Assembly: GCA_004173415.1 (NCBI GenBank)
Contig: SEHC01000006.1
Span: 1-33,419, forward strand
DNA length: 33,419 nucleotides
Origin: Lysobacteraceae bacterium
Lineage (GTDB): Bacteria > Pseudomonadota > Gammaproteobacteria > Xanthomonadales > Xanthomonadaceae
Direction of reading: 5' to 3'
Below the pieces are notes generated by a model, which had not been told where the DNA came from, ran no database searches, and was given only the letters and a program-made list of their open reading frames with translations. Shown here piece after piece: positions 13,451 to 22,740 of the stretch. The stretch's first letter is position 1. The number at the start of each line of letters is the position of its first letter. The position numbers and the translations under genes were made by a program.

Positions 13451-15064
13451 TCAGCGGTTGCGGGCCACGCAGGCGTTCAACTTGCCCGCCTGGGTGGTGT
13501 TGATCAGGCCCGCGCTGCGCAGCTTGTTGCGATAGGTGGTCATGCAGCTGACGTAGGCGCCGTGGTTGGCCGCGCCGATCTCGCAGATGTTGCTCTGCGC
13601 AATGACGTTGGCACCGATGATCAGGCCACCCACCTGCGAAACCGGAATACCGGTATCGCAGCCGGCGATCCTGGCGTTGCCGGCGGTGAGCGTCCAACCC
13701 TCGTCCTGGAACAGCGCATTGGTCAGGTCGACGTTGTAGTTGGCGGCCAGGGTCGAGGTGATCGCCGGCTCCATCAGCGCGTTCGGCGTGGTGCTGACGT
13801 CGTAATGCGAGAACGACGAGCCCTGCGCCACCGGGTTGGGCGAATACAGCAACGCGTAGCCATTGGCGTCGGCACCGGCCAGGGTGCCGGGCAATGTCGC
13901 CAGGGTGACGTTGACGCCCGGCAGCCCCGCCTTGATCGCCGCGCCACTGACCGAGGACACGCTCAGGGTGGGCACCGTGGCCGCCACGCTCGCGTCTTCG
14001 CCCATGGACAGCAGCGCGTTGACGTTGTTGGCGACGATCACCGCCTTGGCGCCGGCGTCCTGCGCGAACCTGGCCTTGATCTCGAAGGCACAGGTGCCGC
14101 GGTCGACGATGGCGATCTTGCCGGCGTAGGCGCCGGCCGGCGATGCCGCGCAGCCCAGCGACGGCGAGGCGCTGCCATCGTTGACCAGCACCACGCTGCC
14201 GGTGAAGTTGGCAGCCGTCGGCGCGGGACCGAACGCAGCGGTGCCGTAGCTGTAGTCACCGCTGACCGTACCGCTGGCCCGCAACACGATCTTCTCGTCC
14301 AGCACCAGCGGGACCTGGCTGGTGACGATGGGCCCGCGGAAGGCCAGGTTGCCACCGATAACCGCCGCCACGCGGCCGGCGTTGGTCATCTGGTACCAGC
14401 CCTGGTTGGTGACGTTGTTCCAGGCGAAGCGCGAGTAGATGTCCTGGTAGCCAGCCAGCGGCGCGCCGGTGACCACGCTGCCGAAGCCGGAGAAGCCCAG
14501 GCCGTGCGCGATCTCGTGCATGACCACGTTGAGGAAGTTGGTCTTGCCGGCCGGGGTGTTGCCGTCCAGGCCGTAGTACCAGCCCGAACCCGGCGAGCAC
14601 GGCGTGCCGTCCGGATTGGTCAGCCCGTAGGACGCGTTGAAGCGGCTGATGATGTCCACGCCGGCGCCGCCCTGCAGGTCCTCGCCGATCAGGGCGTCGG
14701 CCAACGCGCCGTGGTACAGGGTGTCCGGCTTGCCCGGCTCGGTCAGCACGTAGATCGGCGAAGTACCGGCCGAACCGAGCACGGTACCGGCGGCGTTGCA
14801 CTGCAGTGCCTGGAAGCTGGCCTGCACGCGGATGTCGACGGGGCTGATCAGCACGGCGCCCCACAGGTCGGCGGCGAACTGGTAGGCGATTCGGCGTTGC
14901 TCGCCGATGCTGGTGCCCGGGTTGCCGCCGGCCGGTGCCAGCGGGGTGGTGTCGTTGAGGCCCTGGCCGGCCGGATCGGCGTTGACCGGGATGATGTTGG
15001 CGGCAAGCGCGTTGCCGGCGAGGAGCGCGGTGGACAAGGCGGCCAGCAGGAGGGTCTTCTTCAT
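13451..15064 (-). CDS. Secreted metalloprotease with PA domain, M8-like zinc site
   Basis: The start is ATG 15064 with GGGAGA upstream; the track's 703-aa frame is extended. The 537-aa product has a signal peptide (MKKTLLLAALSTALLAGNALA). The HExxH helix is MHEIAHGLGFSG (residues 182-193), so it is a zinc peptidase. A metzincin would need a third ligand three residues after the Gly, but Gly is found there. Instead SHYDVSTTPNALMEPA at about 419-434 resembles the third-His and Met-turn segment of leishmanolysin (M8). Between these lies a PA domain (about 280-395, with VVLVNDGSAS, GKIAIVDRGTCAFEIKARFA and GAKAVIVANN). The C-terminus has a cysteine-containing unit (NHGAYVSCMTTYRNKL, SAGLINTTQAGKLNACV) of a kind seen in secreted gammaproteobacterial proteins. 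It overlaps the upstream gene by ATGA. Confidence 0.85.
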   Translation of the reverse strand: MKKTLLLAALSTALLAGNALAANIIPVNADPAGQGLNDTTPLAPAGGNPGTSIGEQRRIAYQFAADLWGAVLISPVDIRVQASFQALQCNAAGTVLGSAGTSPIYVLTEPGKPDTLYHGALADALIGEDLQGGAGVDIISRFNASYGLTNPDGTPCSPGSGWYYGLDGNTPAGKTNFLNVVMHEIAHGLGFSGFGSVVTGAPLAGYQDIYSRFAWNNVTNQGWYQMTNAGRVAAVIGGNLAFRGPIVTSQVPLVLDEKIVLRASGTVSGDYSYGTAAFGPAPTAANFTGSVVLVNDGSASPSLGCAASPAGAYAGKIAIVDRGTCAFEIKARFAQDAGAKAVIVANNVNALLSMGEDASVAATVPTLSVSSVSGAAIKAGLPGVNVTLATLPGTLAGADANGYALLYSPNPVAQGSSFSHYDVSTTPNALMEPAITSTLAANYNVDLTNALFQDEGWTLTAGNARIAGCDTGIPVSQVGGLIIGANVIAQSNICEIGAANHGAYVSCMTTYRNKLRSAGLINTTQAGKLNACVARNR

Positions 15065-15417
15065 TTGACTTCTCCCTGCGAAGCCTGGGCCGGCAGGGTT
15101 TCGCCCTCGGCAAGGTGCTGGTAGGAAACCGTGCCGTCGGCATTGCGCACCGCTACCAGGTTGACCATGCGGTCTTCCGGCAACTGCAGCTCGAGCAGGC
15201 CGCGCGCGACGGTGCGCTTGCGGGCCACCGCTTCCTGTTCGTTCTTCGGCGGAGTGACGCGCTTGGCCTTGCTGTTCTCGTTGCCACGCACGAAATCGGC
15301 GCGGTCGCGCTTGGGCTTGTCGATCTTGGTCTGTGCGGCGACGGGCCCGACGATGGCGGCCGCGCCCAGCAGGACGACGACGGTAGCCAGGGCATTCCTG
15401 GGATGGACGGATTTCAC
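15061..15417 (-). CDS. Exported 118-aa protein, translationally coupled to the metalloprotease
   Basis: This starts at GTG 15417, which has AGGAG at eight bases, and ends in a TGA that overlaps the ATG of the protease (ATGA). It has a signal peptide ending in PVAA-QT. The mature part, about 90 residues, is highly charged and basic first (KIDKPKRDRADFVRGNENSK), then has a helical KNEQEAVARKRTVARGLL and a final MVNLVAVRNADGTVSYQHLA. I recognise no family. Because coupling ensures co-synthesis and both are exported, a partner role (inhibitor, foldase or substrate of the protease) is a reasonable inference, but nothing in the sequence proves it. The promoter probably lies in the region after 15418. 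Confidence 0.75.
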   Translation of the reverse strand: MKSVHPRNALATVVVLLGAAAIVGPVAAQTKIDKPKRDRADFVRGNENSKAKRVTPPKNEQEAVARKRTVARGLLELQLPEDRMVNLVAVRNADGTVSYQHLAEGETLPAQASQGEVK

Positions 15418-15831: not shown

Positions 15832-18800
15832 TCAGGTGCCGCTGCCGCGTTCCTCGGGGCGCACCCGGAACCAGGCCGCGTACAAGGCCGGCAGGAACAG
15901 CAGGGTCAGCGCGGTGGCCACGGTCAGCCCACCCATGATCGCCACCGCCATCGGCCCGAAGAACGCGCTGCGCGACAGCGGGATCATCGCCAGCACCGCG
16001 GCCAGCGCGGTCAGCACGATCGGGCGGAAACGGCGTACGGTCGCGTCGATGATCGCGTGCCACCGATCATGGCCGGCGTCGATGTCCTGCTGGATCTGGT
16101 CGACCAGGATCACCGAGTTGCGCATGATCATGCCGGCCAGGGCGATCGTCCCCAGCATGGCCACGAAACCGAACGGCACCCGGAACACCAGCAGCGCCAA
16201 CGTCACCCCGATCAGTCCGAGCGGCGCGGTCAGCAACACCAGCGCCACCCGCGAGAAACTGCGCAGCTGCAGCATCAGCAGGGTGGCCACCACCAGCAGG
16301 AACAGGGGCATGCCGGCGGCGATCGACTTCTGCCCGCGCCCCGAGTCCTCCACCGTGCCGCCGGTTTCCAGCAGGTAGCCCGCCGGCAACTGCGCACGGA
16401 TGCCTTCCAGGGTCGGCAGGATCTTTGCGACCACGGTCGGCGCCGTGATGCCGTCGCGGATGTCGGCGCGCACGGTCACCGTGGGCAGGCGGTTGCGATG
16501 CCAGATGATGCCGTCCTCAAATGCGTACTGGACGCTGGCGATCTGCGCCAGCGGCACGCTACCGCTGGCCGTGGGCACGGCCAGGCTGCCGATCAGGTCC
16601 AGGCGCGCACGTTCCTCGTCCGGGCCGCGCAACAGGATCTCGACCAGCTCGTTGCCTTCGCGGTAGGTGCTGACCCGCAATCCCGACAGCGAGCTGGTCA
16701 GGAAATGGGAGACGTCGGACGAGCTGACCCCCATCGCGCGGGCACGGTCCTGGTCGATGCGCAGGCGCAGCACCTTGCTGGGTTCGTCCCAGTCCAGGTT
16801 GACGTTGCTCACGTCGGGATTTCCGCGGACCTGCGCGGCGACCTGCTGGGCCAGCGCCTGGACCCGGTCGATGTGCTCGCCGGAGACCCGGAACTGGATC
16901 GGGTAGCCGACCGGGGGGCCGTTCTCCAGGCGGGTGACGCGGAACTGCAGCTGCGGGAACTGCGGTCCGATCTCTTCCATCATCCAGCTGCGCAGCGCCT
17001 CGCGCGCCGGCAGGTCGGTGGCGGTGACCACGAACTGGGAGAAGTTGGCCTGCGGCAGCTGCTGGTCCAGCGGCAGGTAGAAACGCGGCGAACCGGTACC
17101 GACATACGCGACGTAGTTGTCGATGTCGGTACGCGTGGCCAGCAGCTTCTCCAGCTTCCTGGCCTGGGCCTCGGTCGAGCGCAGGGAGGAGCCTTCGGCC
17201 AGTTCCAGGTCGACCATCAGCTCGAGCCGGGTCGAATCGGGGAAGAACTGCTGTGGCACGAACCGGAACAGCAGCAGCGACGCCACGAACGCCAGCACGG
17301 TGATGCCGATGACCAGCCAGCGATGGCGCAGGCAGGCGTCGAGCAGCCGCCGGTAACGCTGGTAGAAGCGGGTCTGGTAAGGGTCGTGCTGTTCCCGCGG
17401 GTCATGCGCAGCGCGCGGCGCCAGCACGCCGGCGAAGGCCGGCCAGCGATCGGCCAGGCGTTCGCGCAGGCCATTCCAGCGCGCGCCCCACGAGCCGGGC
17501 CGGGGCGGCGCCGGATGGGCCAGGTCGGGCAGCATCTTGTCGCCCAGGTAGGGGATGAACAGCACCGCCGCGATCCACGACACGACCAGGGCGATGGTCA
17601 CCACCTGGAACAGCGAACGGGTGTACTCGCCGGTGCCGGAGGCGGCGGTGGCGATGGGCAGGAAGCCGGCGGCGGTCACCAGCGTGCCGGTCAGCATCGG
17701 GAAGGCGGTCGAGGTGTAGGCGAAGCTCGCCGCGCGCATGCGGTCGAACCCCTGCTCCATCTTGATCGCCATCATCTCCACGGCGATGATCGCGTCGTCC
17801 ACCAGCAGTCCCAGTGCCAGCACCAGCGCGCCCAGCGAGATCTTGTGCAGGCCGACGTTGAAGTAGTGCATGACCGCGAAGGTCATGGCCAGGACCAGCG
17901 GGATGGTCACTGCGACCACCAGCCCGGTGCGCAGGCCCAAAGAGAAGAAGCTGACCAGCAACACGATCAGCACCGCTTCGGTCAGCACCTGCACGAACTC
18001 GCCGACCGAGTCGCGCACCGAATGCGGCTGGTCGGAGACCTTGCGCAGCTGCATGCCCGCCGGCAGCGTCTTCTGCATGCGCTCGAAGCCGGCGTCCAGG
18101 GTCTTGCCCAGGGCCAGGATGTCGCCGCCCTGCTTCATCGCCACGGCCAGGCCGATCGCGTCCTCGCCCATGAAGCGCATCTTCGGCGCGGAAGGGTCGG
18201 CGAAGCCGCGCCGCACTTCGGCGATGTCGCCCAGGCGGATGGTGCGGCCACCGGCCTGGATCGGGAATTGGCGGATGTCGGCGACCGAGGCGAAGGCGCC
18301 GTCGACGCGCAACCGTACCCGGTCGGTGGTGGTTTCGAAGAAACCGGAGGAAGTCACCGTGTTCTGCTGGTCCAGCGCCTGCTGCACGCTGGCCAGGGGG
18401 ATCCCCAGCGTCGCCAGCTTGGTATTGGAAAGCTCGATCCAGACCTTCTCGTCCTGCAGCCCGACCAGTTCCACCTTGCCCACGTCGGCGACCCGCTGCA
18501 GTTCCAGCTGGATGCGCTCGGCGTAGTCCTTCATCACCGCGTAGTCGAAGCCCTTGCCGGTGAGCGCATAGATGTTGCCGAAGGTGTCACCGAACTCGTC
18601 GTTGAAGAACGGCCCGACCACGCCCTCGGGCAGGGTCGCGCGGATGTCGCCGACCTTCTTGCGCGCCTGGTACCAGAGCGCCGGCACTTCGTCGGAATGC
18701 ATCGAGTCGCGGGCCACGAAGATGACCTGCGATTCGCCGGGGCGCGAGTACGAGCGGATGTACTCGTACTCGCCGGTGGTCATCAGCGCCTTCTCGATGC

Positions 18801-19005
18801 GTTCGGTGACCTGCCGCGAGACTTCGTCGGCGGCCGCGCCGGGCCACACCGTGCGCACCACCATCACCTTGAAGGTGAAGGGAGGATCTTCCGACTGGCC
18901 CAGGTGCCGGTACGACCAGGCGCCGATGATGCCGAGCACGATCATCGCGTACAGCACCAGGCTGCGGTGGGTCAGCGCCCATTCGGAGAGGTTGAAGCGG
19001 CGCAT
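15832..19005 (-). CDS. RND efflux transporter permease
   Basis: The 1057-aa inner-membrane proton-driven pump is full length. ATG 19005 is used; the track's 1152-aa version reads into the adaptor out of frame. Signs are the N-terminal SLVLYAMIVLGIIGAWSYR membrane segment, the porter-domain RTVWPGAAADEVSRQVTERI and the TM4 proton-relay aspartates in LVLALGLLVDDAIIAVEMM. There are also two large periplasmic loops and the C-terminal GMIMRNSVILVDQ. In AcrB the last motif has a Lys (K940), whereas Arg is found here, as in some other RND lineages. By memory it resembles the group containing TriC rather than AcrB. Substrate is not predictable. It is downstream of an adaptor gene that appears broken and divergent from a TetR-family regulator. 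Confidence 0.95.
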   Translation of the reverse strand: MRRFNLSEWALTHRSLVLYAMIVLGIIGAWSYRHLGQSEDPPFTFKVMVVRTVWPGAAADEVSRQVTERIEKALMTTGEYEYIRSYSRPGESQVIFVARDSMHSDEVPALWYQARKKVGDIRATLPEGVVGPFFNDEFGDTFGNIYALTGKGFDYAVMKDYAERIQLELQRVADVGKVELVGLQDEKVWIELSNTKLATLGIPLASVQQALDQQNTVTSSGFFETTTDRVRLRVDGAFASVADIRQFPIQAGGRTIRLGDIAEVRRGFADPSAPKMRFMGEDAIGLAVAMKQGGDILALGKTLDAGFERMQKTLPAGMQLRKVSDQPHSVRDSVGEFVQVLTEAVLIVLLVSFFSLGLRTGLVVAVTIPLVLAMTFAVMHYFNVGLHKISLGALVLALGLLVDDAIIAVEMMAIKMEQGFDRMRAASFAYTSTAFPMLTGTLVTAAGFLPIATAASGTGEYTRSLFQVVTIALVVSWIAAVLFIPYLGDKMLPDLAHPAPPRPGSWGARWNGLRERLADRWPAFAGVLAPRAAHDPREQHDPYQTRFYQRYRRLLDACLRHRWLVIGITVLAFVASLLLFRFVPQQFFPDSTRLELMVDLELAEGSSLRSTEAQARKLEKLLATRTDIDNYVAYVGTGSPRFYLPLDQQLPQANFSQFVVTATDLPAREALRSWMMEEIGPQFPQLQFRVTRLENGPPVGYPIQFRVSGEHIDRVQALAQQVAAQVRGNPDVSNVNLDWDEPSKVLRLRIDQDRARAMGVSSSDVSHFLTSSLSGLRVSTYREGNELVEILLRGPDEERARLDLIGSLAVPTASGSVPLAQIASVQYAFEDGIIWHRNRLPTVTVRADIRDGITAPTVVAKILPTLEGIRAQLPAGYLLETGGTVEDSGRGQKSIAAGMPLFLLVVATLLMLQLRSFSRVALVLLTAPLGLIGVTLALLVFRVPFGFVAMLGTIALAGMIMRNSVILVDQIQQDIDAGHDRWHAIIDATVRRFRPIVLTALAAVLAMIPLSRSAFFGPMAVAIMGGLTVATALTLLFLPALYAAWFRVRPEERGSGT

Positions 19006-19007
19006 GT

Positions 19008-19815
19008 TCAGTCCGCCTGCGATCGGCCTTGAGGCCACCCAGTACCGGCACGTCGGTCTCGCCATAGCGGCCGAGCTGCACCGCCTGGGACCGGACCTTG
19101 CCGGTCGCCGGATCGACCACCCAGACCGCGTTGGCGCCGTTGGCGCCGCGCTGGATCGCCGAAAGCGGCACGCTGAGTTCGGCCGCGGCGGCATCCTGCA
19201 CGTAGACGCGGGCGCTCTGGCCGAGTTCCACCGAGGCGGCCGCCTGGCCGACCAGGTTGACCCGCGCGGCATAGGTGCGAGTCTGCGCATCGGCGGCCGG
19301 GGAGATCTCGCGGATCACCCCGGGCAGGCGTTCGCCGGGCGCATTCCACAATTCCACCAGTACCGGCTGGCCGACAGTGAAGTCGCGGATCCGGCCCTCC
19401 GGCAAGGCAATGGCCACTTCGCGGCCATCGTCGGCGGCCAGGGTGAAGATCGTCTGGCCGGCGGCCACCACCTGTCCTGCCTCGGCCAGGCGGGTGGCGA
19501 TGACCCCGTCGCGGGGCGCGCGCAACTGCGAATAACCGGCCTGGTTGCGGGCCACGTCCAGTTGCGCGCGGGCAGCGCGGGCCTGGCCCTCGGTCGCCTT
19601 GTAGGCGGCATTCTGCGCATCGTAGGCGGACTGGCTGACCAGCTTGTCCTGCACAAGCCGCGCGTAGCGGTCGCGATCGCCGCGCGCGCGGACCAGCTCG
19701 GCATCGGCTGCACCACCAGGGCCGGGCGTGGCGCCTGGTTGCCGTCGCCCTGGTCTCCGCAAGCAGCCAGGGTGGCGAGAAGCAGAAGGAGGACGGAACC
19801 GCGCATTCTGCTCAT
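19008..19815 (-). pseudogene. RND efflux membrane-fusion (adaptor) protein, two internal deletions
   Basis: The start is intact: ATG 19815 with GGAG seven bases upstream, then a lipoprotein signal with LAAC (C19) and an N-terminal QAPRPALVVQP. Around 19700-19712 the reading frame switches. In the new frame a typical adaptor continues with AELVRARGDRDRYARLVQDK, LVSQSAYDAQN, GYSQLRAPRDGVIATRLAEA, SPAADAQTRTYAARVNL and AVWVVDPATGKV. The segment normally between these, about 70 residues with the first half of the lipoyl/barrel-sandwich domain and start of the helical hairpin, is missing. Near 19020-19030, after VLGGLKA, the frame must switch again to reach a TGA at 19008-19010, and roughly 30 C-terminal residues are absent. 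Two separate out-of-frame deletions in one gene make functional product unlikely. The permease downstream is intact. Confidence 0.8.
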
Positions 19816-19899
19816 CGGGACACTCCGTTCCTGCTCGGACGATAATTGGACTTCCCGGTATAGTATAAATATCGAACCGGTTAGTCTACTATTGGACGC
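19816..19899. promoter_or_regulatory. Divergent promoter/operator between efflux operon and tetR-type gene
   Basis: The 84-base gap is the most AT-rich part of its neighbourhood. On the minus strand TATACT (19867-19862) is a candidate -10 for the efflux operon. On the plus strand TACTAT (19887-19892) ends seven bases before the regulator's ATG, so its mRNA could be leaderless. An interrupted palindrome, CCGGT-N16-ACCGG (19855-19880), covers the efflux -10; ACCGG is also part of the palindrome AACCGGTT at 19875. ATTGGAC occurs twice (19845 and 19891). TetR proteins commonly bind such sites; which element is the operator is inference. Confidence 0.5.
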
Positions 19900-20571
19900 A
19901 TGGTCCGCAGCGAGCTACCAGGCAACCGTTCCAAGTCCCCCGGCAAGGTGTCCAGCCCCGGTCGGCCCAAGGACCTGGGCAAGCGCGCCGCGATCCTGGA
20001 AGCGGCCAAGCGGCTGTTCTCCAGCGAAGGCTTCAATGGCGCCAGCATGGACCAGATCGCCGCCGAAGCGGGGGTCTCCAAACTCACCGTCTACAGCCAT
20101 TTCGGCGACAAGGAAGCGCTGTTCTCGGCCGCGGTCCGGGCCAAGTGCGAGGAGATGCTGCCCGACGACCTGTTCGACATCGAACTCAAGGGTCCGCTGC
20201 AGGCGCAGTTGCGTGCGATCGCCAGCGCTTTCTTCGAACTGATCAGCAGCGACGAGGCGATCAGCACCCAGCGCATGATGATGGCCCTGGGGCAGGCGGA
20301 CGATCCCTTGCGCAACCTGTTCTGGGAGGCCGGCCCGCAGCGTACCCACCAGGCGTTCGCGGTCTTCCTGCAGTCGCGGGTCGAGGCCGGCGAACTGGAG
20401 ATCGCCGACGTCGGCCGCGCCACCGAGCAGTTCTTCGCCCTGATCAAGGGCGAGATGCACGGCCGCATGATGTGCGGCCTCTGCGCCAGTCCGCGGCAGG
20501 TCGACGTGGCCGCCCACGTCGATGCGACCGTGGACATGTTCCTGCGCGCCTATGGGCCGCGCCAGCAGTGA
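19900..20571 (+). CDS. TetR/AcrR-family transcriptional regulator of the efflux locus
   Basis: The 223-aa protein has a TetR DNA-binding domain at about residues 28-75: KRAAILEAAKRLFSSEGFNG, then the recognition helix region MDQIAAEAGVSKLTVYSHFG and DKEALFSAAV. The C-terminal ligand/dimerisation part (about 90-215) resembles AefR-like regulators. A basic, disordered N-terminus of about 25 residues (LPGNRSKSPGK) precedes the HTH. It is divergently oriented and 84 bases from the efflux operon, the usual arrangement for a local repressor. Substrates that relieve repression are unknown. No Shine-Dalgarno is seen before ATG 19900, consistent with the leaderless promoter proposed in the gap. It has no sign of decay. 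Confidence 0.92.
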   Translation: MVRSELPGNRSKSPGKVSSPGRPKDLGKRAAILEAAKRLFSSEGFNGASMDQIAAEAGVSKLTVYSHFGDKEALFSAAVRAKCEEMLPDDLFDIELKGPLQAQLRAIASAFFELISSDEAISTQRMMMALGQADDPLRNLFWEAGPQRTHQAFAVFLQSRVEAGELEIADVGRATEQFFALIKGEMHGRMMCGLCASPRQVDVAAHVDATVDMFLRAYGPRQQ

Positions 20572-20681
20572 CCAGGCCCCCGGCGACGGAGGTCTCGGTG
20601 ACTTCCGGCACTGCGTGCTGGTGTGCTACTACGGCGATCCTGATGCACGGCGGCGCCCCCTCGAAACACGCCGCGAGCCGC

Positions 20682-20687
20682 TAAAAT
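20682..20687 (+). promoter_or_regulatory. Possible -10 element of the PCMT-like/tolC operon
   Basis: TAAAAT at 20682-20687 stands out in otherwise GC-rich sequence, 30 bases before the ATG at 20717. No good -35 hexamer is seen at 16-18 bases upstream; TCGAAA at 20661 is the closest, with only 15 bases between. The call rests on the -10-like sequence alone. Confidence 0.35.
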
Positions 20688-20716
20688 GGCCGGCTCCCGT
20701 GCAGGATGACCTTCCG

Positions 20717-21373
20717 ATGACGATGAACTACAACCAGGCCCGCGAAACCATGGTCGAGCAGCAGGTGCGTCCCTGGGACGTGCTCGATGCGCGCGTGCTG
20801 GGCACCCTGGCGACCCTGCCGCGCGAGAAGTTCGTGCCGGAGATCCATCGCGCCCTGGCCTATGCCGACGTGGAGATCCCGCTGGGCCCGGGCCAGCGCA
20901 TGATGAAGCCGGTGATCGAAGGCCGCACCCTGCAGGCGCTCGCCCTGCAGGAAGGCGAGGAGGTCCTGGAGATCGGCACTGGCAGCGGTTACCTGGCCGC
21001 CTGCATGGGCGCCCTCGCCCGCGACGTGCTCAGCCTGGAGATCGACCCGGCCCTGGCCGCGCTGGCCCGCACCCGGCTGGACGACTGCGGCCTCGGCAAC
21101 AACGTGCGCATCGAGAACGTCGACGCGCTGCACTTCTCCACCGAGCGCCGCTTCGATGCGATCTGCGTGACCGCCGCGGTCGACCAGGTGCCGTCACTTT
21201 TCCTGCAGTGGCTGCGTCCCGGGGGCCGCCTGTTCGTGATCCACGGCCGTTCGCCGGCAATGGAGGCGGTCCTGATCCGCAACGCGGTCAACGGCCCCAG
21301 CATCGAGTCGTTGTTCGAAACCGATCTTCCCTACCTTGTCGGCGCCGCCCCGGCCCCGCAATTCGTCTTTTGA
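20717..21373 (+). CDS. Protein-L-isoaspartate O-methyltransferase-like SAM methyltransferase
   Basis: The 218-aa protein has the class I SAM-binding motif VLEIGTGSGYLAACMGALA (about residues 79-97) and matches the PCMT family along its length, including PREKFVP near residue 36 and the C-terminal RPGGRLFVIHGRSP. PCMT repairs isoaspartyl residues by methylation in the cytoplasm. However, the family's conserved TISQP-type substrate motif before the SAM loop is not present; here the sequence reads IPLGPGQRMMKPVIEGRTL. The specific activity is therefore uncertain. This version is, to my memory, regularly next to tolC in xanthomonads. It is 17 bases upstream of tolC and probably co-transcribed. The start at 20717 has a weak AGGA. 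Confidence 0.85.
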   Translation: MTMNYNQARETMVEQQVRPWDVLDARVLGTLATLPREKFVPEIHRALAYADVEIPLGPGQRMMKPVIEGRTLQALALQEGEEVLEIGTGSGYLAACMGALARDVLSLEIDPALAALARTRLDDCGLGNNVRIENVDALHFSTERRFDAICVTAAVDQVPSLFLQWLRPGGRLFVIHGRSPAMEAVLIRNAVNGPSIESLFETDLPYLVGAAPAPQFVF

Positions 21374-21390
21374 ACACGAAAGGAAACCGC

Positions 21391-22740
21391 ATGAGCCGTC
21401 GTCCCCTCGCCTTCGCGCTTGCCCTGGCCCTGTTGCCGCTGGGCGCCAACGCCGCCGACCTGCTGCAGACCTACGAACTCGCCCGCGCCGGCGACCCGCA
21501 ACTGTCGGCCGCCGAATCCGGACGCCTGGCCCAGAAGGAAGGCGCGGTGCAGGCACGCGCCGTGCTGCTGCCGCAGATCAACGGCCAGGCCAGCTACAAC
21601 CGCAGCAAGTTCAAGCCCGAGGGCGGCTCCTGGTCCGGCACCAGCAACTCGCGCGACGTCGGCGTATCGGTCAACCAGTCGCTGCTGGACTTCGGCAGCT
21701 ACGCCAACCTGCGCGGCCAGAATGCGCTGAGCAAGGCCGCCGACTTCGACCTGGAGGCGGCCAACGATTCACTGATCACCCGCACCTCGGCGGCCTACTT
21801 CAACGTGCTGGTGGCGATCGAGACCCTGGCCGCGGCCGAAGCCCAGCAGACCGCGCTGCAGAAGCAGTTCGACTACGCGCAGAAGCGCCTGGACGTGGGC
21901 CTGGCCCCGATCACCGACGTGCACGAGGCCCGCGCCCAGTACGACAGCGCGCGCGCCAACGTGATCCTCAGCCGCAACACGCTGAAGGACGCCTACGAGG
22001 CGCTGGCCGAGATCACCGGCCAGCCGGTGGCCAACCTCAAGGGCCTGCCGGACGATTTCCGCCCCGAATTGCCCACCGACTACGATGCCAGCGGCTGGGT
22101 CGAAACCGCGATCACCACCAACCCGGCGCTCAAGTCCACCGAGTTCCAGGTCCAGGCCTCCGAAGCGGCGGTCGCCGCCGCGCGCGCCGGCCACCTGCCG
22201 ACCTTGTCGCTGGGCGGCAATTTCGGCCGCGGCGCCAACTGGGGCAACTCGGTGACCGGCGGCCTGTCCAGCAACGGCGATTCGCAGAGCATCGGCCTGA
22301 CCCTGAACGTGCCGATCTTCTCCGGCGGCGCGACCCAGTCCCGGGTCCGCGAGGCGCTCGCCAACCGCGACGTGGCCCAGGACAGCTACGAGCAGCAGAA
22401 GCGCGCGATCGTGCGCAACACCCGCAACGCCTACCAGACCCTGGAGGCCGGGATCAGCGAGATCGAGGCCCGGCGCCTGGCGCTGGTTTCGGCAAGGGCC
22501 GCCTACGATGCTTCGCAGGTCGGCCTGGAAGTCGGCACCCGTACCGTGCTGGACGTGTTGATCAACCAGCAGAACCTGTTCCAGGCCCAGCAGGCCTACG
22601 CGCTGGCCAAGTACAACTACCTGCAGAACCGGCTGCTGCTGGACCAGGCCGCCGGAACCCTGGACATCGCCGACGTGCAGGCGGTCAACCGCCTGCTGAC
22701 CGTCGATGCCGAAGCGCAACTGGCGCCCAGCGCCCAGTAG
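21391..22740 (+). CDS. tolC: TolC family outer-membrane channel protein
   Basis: The 449-aa outer-membrane efflux protein has a signal peptide (MSRRPLAFALALALLPLGANA-A) and two OEP repeats, as TolC does. Visible markers are DLLQTYELARAGDPQL at the mature N-terminus, VGVSVNQSLLDFGSYANL, the helix with YAQKRLDVGLAPITDVHEAR, LTLNVPIFSGGATQSRV and VGTRTVLDVLINQQNLFQAQ. These match the TolC group rather than OprM-like lipoproteins. The product forms a trimeric channel used by tripartite pumps and type I secretion. It is preceded by a good AAAGGA site and lies in an operon with the PCMT-like gene. It is not adjacent to the efflux permease operon, from which it is separated by tetR; partnership with that pump is only a possibility. 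Confidence 0.95.
   Translation: MSRRPLAFALALALLPLGANAADLLQTYELARAGDPQLSAAESGRLAQKEGAVQARAVLLPQINGQASYNRSKFKPEGGSWSGTSNSRDVGVSVNQSLLDFGSYANLRGQNALSKAADFDLEAANDSLITRTSAAYFNVLVAIETLAAAEAQQTALQKQFDYAQKRLDVGLAPITDVHEARAQYDSARANVILSRNTLKDAYEALAEITGQPVANLKGLPDDFRPELPTDYDASGWVETAITTNPALKSTEFQVQASEAAVAAARAGHLPTLSLGGNFGRGANWGNSVTGGLSSNGDSQSIGLTLNVPIFSGGATQSRVREALANRDVAQDSYEQQKRAIVRNTRNAYQTLEAGISEIEARRLALVSARAAYDASQVGLEVGTRTVLDVLINQQNLFQAQQAYALAKYNYLQNRLLLDQAAGTLDIADVQAVNRLLTVDAEAQLAPSAQ

Follow-up and report, generated by a model that had tools for sequence, protein, structure and literature searches.

The window that we analyzed is a stretch of 33,419 nucleotides from a Lysobacteraceae bacterium, and its minus strand carries two overlapping genes. 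The downstream gene, P0001 (13451..15064, including the stop codon), encodes a secreted, M8-like metalloprotease of 537 amino acids with an internal PA domain, and its nearest named relatives belong to Pseudoxanthomonas and other Lysobacteraceae. The upstream gene, P0002 (15061..15417), starts with GTG and encodes a small secreted partner of 118 amino acids, which profile and family matches identified as NF047450-like; this overlapping gene was absent from an earlier note on the region. The stop codon of P0002 and the start codon of P0001 are joined in a 4-nt overlap, ATGA (15061..15064, minus strand, from the gene coordinates), and the translational coupling of the two genes is inferred from sequence alone. 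The protease operon adjoins a gene for an RND efflux pump of the AcrB type (15832..18993, minus strand), beyond which lie genes for a TetR-type regulator (19900..20571, plus strand) and an outer-membrane efflux protein (21208..22740, plus strand); the region 15832..22740 looks like an ordinary efflux locus.

P0001 starts with a signal-peptide-like N-terminus, recognized in the sequence (residues 1–22; 14999..15064; this and all the following features of P0001 are on the minus strand). HEIAHGLGFSG spans H183–G193, and its first nine residues (183–191; 14492..14518) contain the putative first two zinc ligands (H183 and H187) and the putative catalytic Glu (E184), an invariant H/E/H set, followed by Gly where the short-spaced metzincins have their third His. 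A second conserved stretch, SHYDVSTTPNALMEPA, begins at S419. Here, in SH420-YDVSTTPNA-LM431EP (residues 419–433; 13766..13810), which conservation and the alignment with leishmanolysin (1lml) mark as the segment of the third zinc His and the Met-turn, nine residues separate the His from the LM pair, and H420 lies about 233 residues past HExxH. Between the two motifs is the PA domain (PF02225, residues 288–377; 13934..14203), supported by Foldseek and by Pfam (E = 6.6e-17, 61.9 bits against a gathering cut-off of 23.9). The earlier note had reported exactly this arrangement of HEIAHGLGFSG, a distant His with a nine-residue spacing to LM, and a PA domain between them, and this observation was confirmed. 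The protein ends in a helical, Cys-containing extension (residues 463–537; 13454..13678), which was delimited by the alignment coverage and the structural model, is typical of the Lysobacteraceae members, and has no Pfam match.

The motif residues are strongly conserved. In an alignment of 55 PA-bearing relatives, H183, E184, H187, H420, E432, and P433 are invariant, and therefore the pair of motifs is not a chance resemblance; the matching His and Met positions are also invariant in the alignment of the PA-less proteins. The earlier note had named a lack of conservation of H420 and the Met as the result that would refute its reading, and the family passed this test with a single exception among the full-length subfamily members. 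The exception (L044:5001-6656) comes from a Luteimonas MAG, in which the Met-turn Met is replaced by Gln (ALQEP) and all three His residues are kept. It was found in a member list that was not filtered by motif, separate from the set of 94 distinct sequences used for the spacing analysis, which was picked by motif. As a further caveat of the sampling, two of the six search peptides (NALMEPAI and WYYGLDGN) lie within or near the conserved core, which is partly offset by the fact that a single matching peptide was sufficient to fetch a locus. The binding of the catalytic zinc by H183, H187, and H420 remains an inference from sequence alone, because the geometry of the site has not been measured.

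The kinship of P0001 with M8 proteases is shown by profile comparisons. When a profile of the PA-less relatives was compared with solved structures, leishmanolysin (1lml) was the best match (E = 0.0044), and the alignment covered both HEMAHALGF and GSAGSH...ELMAP...DLGF. According to the HMM alignment, 1lml has the same nine-residue spacing from His to LM as P0001 (SH-IKMRNAQDE-LM), and the same His/Met spacing is present in bacterial M8 proteins such as L110. The profile of the PA-bearing proteins also retrieved 1lml, in two stretches (E = 0.0017). In profile–profile comparisons, the PA-less profile matched a set of four bacterial proteins above the Pfam M8 cut-off at 97.5% over the whole domain, including its N-terminal part, and matched the NF038122 proteins at 98.8%. 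When HExxH was masked on both sides, the matches to M8 and NF038122 remained at 85% and 96%, respectively, whereas that to M10 fell from 80% to 0.2%. Reversed-sequence controls stayed below 1% (reversed M8, 0.3%), and M43 could not serve as an hhalign control because no members were found in 60 genomes. The likeness to M8 is therefore specific, both because 1lml is the top solved structure and because the M8 match survives the masking that abolishes the M10 match.

Nevertheless, strict membership of M8 was not met. Pfam detected no metallopeptidase family above its cut-off in P0001, which gave no hit to PF01457 (cut-off, 21 bits). The PA-less protein L105 reached 14.4 bits, the best PF01457 E value among the PA-bearing members was only 0.0028, and no examined member was seen above the cut-off in our tables; there were also weak Pfam matches to M10, M12B, and M66. 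In NCBIfam, the M36 models matched P0001 through its PA part only, and NF038122 (metallo_LGF), which is the closest described profile, remained below its cut-off of 80 bits (33.1 bits for P0001 and 49.1 bits for L105), although 15 of the 15 PA-less members matched it at E ≤ 1 (best, 1.9e-21). The NF038122 loci (L112–L116) differ from P0001 in having SHW and another His–Met spacing, and no such upstream partner was seen in them. P0001 shares with leishmanolysin and M8 (PF01457; 1lml) the HExxHxxGF helix, the distant third His, the Met at His+11, and the downstream D-[LI]-G-[FYW] motif, and it shows profile kinship to the bacterial M8 proteins; it differs from them in its score below the cut-off, the PA domain that separates ligands 2 and 3, the lack of a cis propeptide, and the upstream partner gene. 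Overall, the evidence supports the M8-like reading of the earlier note: P0001 is related to M8 and has M8-type active-site motifs, with the zinc site itself inferred, yet it is not a member of M8 by the Pfam threshold. An AlphaFold model of P0001, built with 55 sequences, was of high confidence (pLDDT, 93.8; pTM, 0.89). In the best 50 rows of a Foldseek search with this model there were only PA domains and PA-bearing proteins, without 1lml, and thus the search did not test the metzincin fold of P0001. The model of PA-less L105 had low confidence exactly at the active site and yielded no Foldseek matches.

The PA domain is inserted between zinc ligands 2 and 3 of P0001. Among the 94 distinct sequences, the spacing between HExxH and the third His is bimodal, at 96–108 residues in the PA-less proteins and 237–260 residues in the others. 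In the alignment, a W.G..V segment of the PA-less proteins directly joins GH..MYAPNP..GSSVSH, and P0001 has approximately 140 additional residues at this point; the insert, placed at about residues 250–396 (13877..14317) by the comparison of PA-bearing and PA-less proteins, is missing in the latter. The profiles of the two groups matched each other at 100%, with the PA block as a gap. Because the PA-less relatives keep both flanks and both motifs, the PA domain is a true insertion, and the claim of the earlier note that it lies inside the active-site scaffold held on this ground; its suggestion that the domain may be a lid is only conjecture. A single origin of the insert is not what the best tree shows, which needs four changes and whose starred branches force at least two. 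A single PA-bearing clade was not rejected by the AU test (p = 0.065), however, so that the data only hint at repeated gain or loss.

The insertion of PA domains into proteases is already known, and what differs here is the position. The top Foldseek matches of the P0001 model were PA domains, first the cargo-binding PA domain of plant VSR1 and then those of M28 and S8 proteases. In an M36 protein among our loci (L025), the PA domain sits just before HExxH, and in three subtilases (L020, L027, and L029) it likewise lies inside the protease part. The PA-bearing S8, M28, and M36 proteases thus resemble P0001 in that a PA domain interrupts the catalytic domain, whereas in P0001 it does so within a metzincin, after the second zinc ligand and before the third. 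No leishmanolysin or other metzincin with a PA domain was found in the literature that we searched. The insertion in P0001 shows that metzincins tolerate an entire PA domain at this position, and the PA-less relatives provide natural controls. By analogy with PA domains elsewhere, we infer that the PA domain may serve as a substrate-recruiting module.

The catalytic domain of P0001 begins directly after the signal peptide, with the first modelled strand at residues 24–28 (pLDDT approximately 98), and P0001 is therefore without a propeptide. What precedes it instead is P0002, and the pairing of the two genes is conserved. A seed profile built from 20 Lysobacteraceae-type partners was run on all 9,392 ORFs from the six reading frames of the loci, and it found 57 ORFs, all directly ahead of a protease: 51 were flagged as adjacent, and the other six were either artefacts of the start estimate, which are adjacent too, or preceded the second protease copy in L009. 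The iterated profile found 86 partner ORFs at E ≤ 0.001, with overlaps of −4 nt in 28 cases and −8 nt in 19. These partners occur in Pseudomonadota, Acidobacteriota, Myxococcota, Verrucomicrobiota, Krumholzibacteriota, and Eisenbacteria, and accompany PA-bearing and PA-less proteases alike. Upstream ORFs with DGxxxxxC were also present at the distant proteases L021, L022, L026, L028, and L141 and, with small variations, at L011, L014, L015, and L019. No recognizable partner was found in L090 or in the giant multi-protease ORFs (L091, L092, L094, L099, and L107), and the partner of L138 is truncated; because it is missing in a few relatives, the partner is not absolutely required. The profile work was limited to the loci fetched with P0001, so the distant branches are under-sampled.

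The partner family corresponds to NF047450 (post-PEP-CTERM-1), which is uncharacterized in NCBI and whose name carries no function. P0002 itself scored 22.9 bits, below the 28-bit cut-off, and 29 of the 31 aligned partners matched the model (best E = 6e-24). Matches above the threshold numbered 10 in 61 related genomes and three in 399 genomes of the phylum (one shared), and every such match in the sampled genomes lies just upstream of an M8-like protease. Among 37 genomes of the genus, NF047450 was matched in seven of the 10 that have the protease and in none of the 27 that lack it; the remaining three protease-bearing genomes, including that of the window, have a more divergent P0002. The conserved domain of the partner comprises only about 45 residues. 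Family and profile searches found no metal-binding family for it, and a PDB search with the partner profile gave only weak lectin-repeat matches (E = 0.02), a kinship that we rejected as chance. No link between post-PEP-CTERM proteins and this protease was found in the literature that we searched. In L134 and L136, the partner gene is immediately preceded by sequence encoding a PEP-CTERM-like C-terminus (PEPAAWMMLAMGLGGFGLLRR), an arrangement that may account for the name of the family.

One alignment column of the partner, six residues past an invariant Gly, is strongly constrained; in P0002 it is His101 (codon at 15115..15117, minus strand), which we propose as the zinc-ligand switch. This column holds only His (28), Glu (24), Cys (22), or Asp (3) across the 77 distinct partners, two of which were counted with a one-residue shift, and these are the four residues with which proteins usually bind zinc. 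Counted by parsimony on the protease tree, the column underwent at least 10 changes, none of which left the set, whereas in the two adjacent columns 43 and 38 changes were counted, involving 17 and 14 residue types, respectively; no further column with at least 10 changes was confined to four residues. BLOSUM62 odds give a probability of roughly 0.08–0.23 that any of the four residues, when it changes, stays inside the set, and therefore ten such changes are very unlikely without constraint, although this figure is a rough one. A disulfide role for the partner Cys was rejected, since His and Glu replace it.

The partner domain also occurs in cis. In L017 and L018, from other Lysobacterales families, it lies between the signal peptide and the catalytic domain and carries Cys as its switch residue, and no separate partner was found at these loci. 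When the N-termini of 108 proteases were scanned, only these two scored (E = 1.9e-4 and 5.6e-6; next, 0.46). Judged by eye, L093 and L102 also have N-terminal extensions, which are possibly decayed partner fusions. Of two features expected of a prosegment, that of being encoded in cis is met by L017 and L018 and is unmet by P0002 and most of its relatives; a single conserved zinc-ligand residue is present across the partner family.

These observations lead us to favor, with moderate confidence, a split zymogen, in which P0002 and P0001 form a two-gene secreted unit and P0002 blocks the zinc in trans. This is an inference made without biochemical data or a model of the complex. P0001 would be a leishmanolysin-like metzincin that holds zinc on H183, H187, and H420, with E184 as the general base and M431 forming the Met-turn. 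The PA domain, in the loop between ligands 2 and 3, would lie beside the active-site cleft and probably recruit or orient protein substrates. P0002 would be co-translated and co-secreted with P0001 and supply latency in trans, its C-terminal domain covering the active site and His101 (Cys, Glu, or Asp in the relatives) coordinating the zinc. Latency would last until P0002 is broken down or dislodged in the extracellular space. The motifs, the insertion, the kinship with M8, the paired genes, the four-residue constraint, and the cis fusions rest directly on sequence, whereas the coordination of zinc, the inhibition, the removal of the partner, and the role of the PA domain are all inferred.

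Two precedents resemble parts of this scheme. The zinc of metzincins is blocked by a Cys or an Asp of the prosegment, and the choice can vary among the members of one family (PMC6949598, PMC9848320). The zymogens with Cys- or Asp-switches (MMPs, astacins, mirolysin, and karilysin) share with our proposal the use of one side chain of the prosegment to bind the zinc (PMC6949598, PMC9848320), whereas P0002 is a separate gene, and His and Glu occur besides Cys and Asp within one family; we met no description of a His or Glu switch in the literature that we searched. For the KLIKK proteases of Tannerella, the genes of small secreted inhibitors, the potempins, lie directly before those of their target proteases (PMC7296668). 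One of these proteases, mirolysin, additionally carries a prosegment in cis whose switch is a Cys (PMC6949598), whereas P0001 has no cis prosegment, and in some relatives the partner is fused to the protease as a prosegment. We infer that P0002–P0001 would combine both precedents, as a zinc-blocking prosegment usually encoded by a gene of its own.

The rival explanation that survives best is that P0002 serves as a dedicated chaperone or foldase in the periplasm, aiding the folding and secretion of P0001 and leaving the zinc unblocked, while the switch residue has another role. Lipase-specific foldases and the pro regions of alpha-lytic protease acting in trans are models of such foldases. The strict pairing, the overlapping genes, and the cis fusions fit a foldase equally well, and many propeptides do both. 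However, the limitation to four zinc-ligand residues over at least 10 changes, with freely varying neighbors, is left unexplained, and the conserved domain is small for this role, so we consider a foldase alone unlikely. Much less plausible is a zinc-delivery protein that hands zinc to the apo-protease through the switch residue: the set of residues is that of zinc ligands and the partner accompanies a zinc enzyme, but only one ligand residue is conserved, metallochaperones normally having at least two, and no metal-binding family was identified. It is equally hard to maintain that P0001 is merely a PA-bearing metzincin of the usual kind, whose small secreted neighbor is unrelated to it and kept by operon inheritance without functional meaning, because although gene order can persist within families and many of the loci are from Lysobacteraceae, the pair is kept over six phyla, NF047450 co-occurs with the protease in the genus sample (7/10 against 0/27), and there are two cis fusions. 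Finally, the view that the catalytic domain is another zincin with a convergent SH420...LM, which could appeal to the lack of a PF01457 hit above the cut-off in P0001, the weak M10/M12B/M66 matches, and the absence of M8 from the Foldseek results, is very unlikely given the domain-wide M8 match that outlasts masking, unlike that of M10, the rank of 1lml as the best solved relative, and an equally close relationship to NF038122, in which SHW...M.P is likewise present.

Returning to the split zymogen, a bolder reading, which we hold to be slightly more likely than not, is that there is a multi-phylum family of metzincins with a separate, coupled prosegment gene whose switch has repeatedly changed among Cys, His, Glu, and Asp, and that the orphan post-PEP-CTERM-1 family is this prosegment. 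The close linkage of NF047450 to an unnamed family of M8-like proteases offers a testable function for a domain family known by name only, and the Cys/His/Glu/Asp variants form a natural series on how the switch residue of a zymogen sets latency and activation.

Several other features of the family were observed. Protease genes are duplicated in tandem in L055, L065, L036, L037, and L078; in the first four of these loci, each protease copy has its own partner gene, and the two partners of L036 differ at the switch residue (His and Glu). The giant ORFs noted above as lacking an upstream partner are 3,389–3,806 amino acids long and contain several HExxH motifs each, and most of them hold two or three complete PA-less M8-like motif pairs per polypeptide; they come from Acidobacteriota (among them Acanthopleuribacter pedis) and from one gammaproteobacterial MAG. 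Additionally, the C-termini of L013, L019, and L105 and the tail of L090, all from outside Lysobacteraceae, resemble one another in ending with an FE pair (VFANGFE, VFASGFE, IFQDRFE, and LLADQFE), and this tail is possibly a sorting or anchoring signal.
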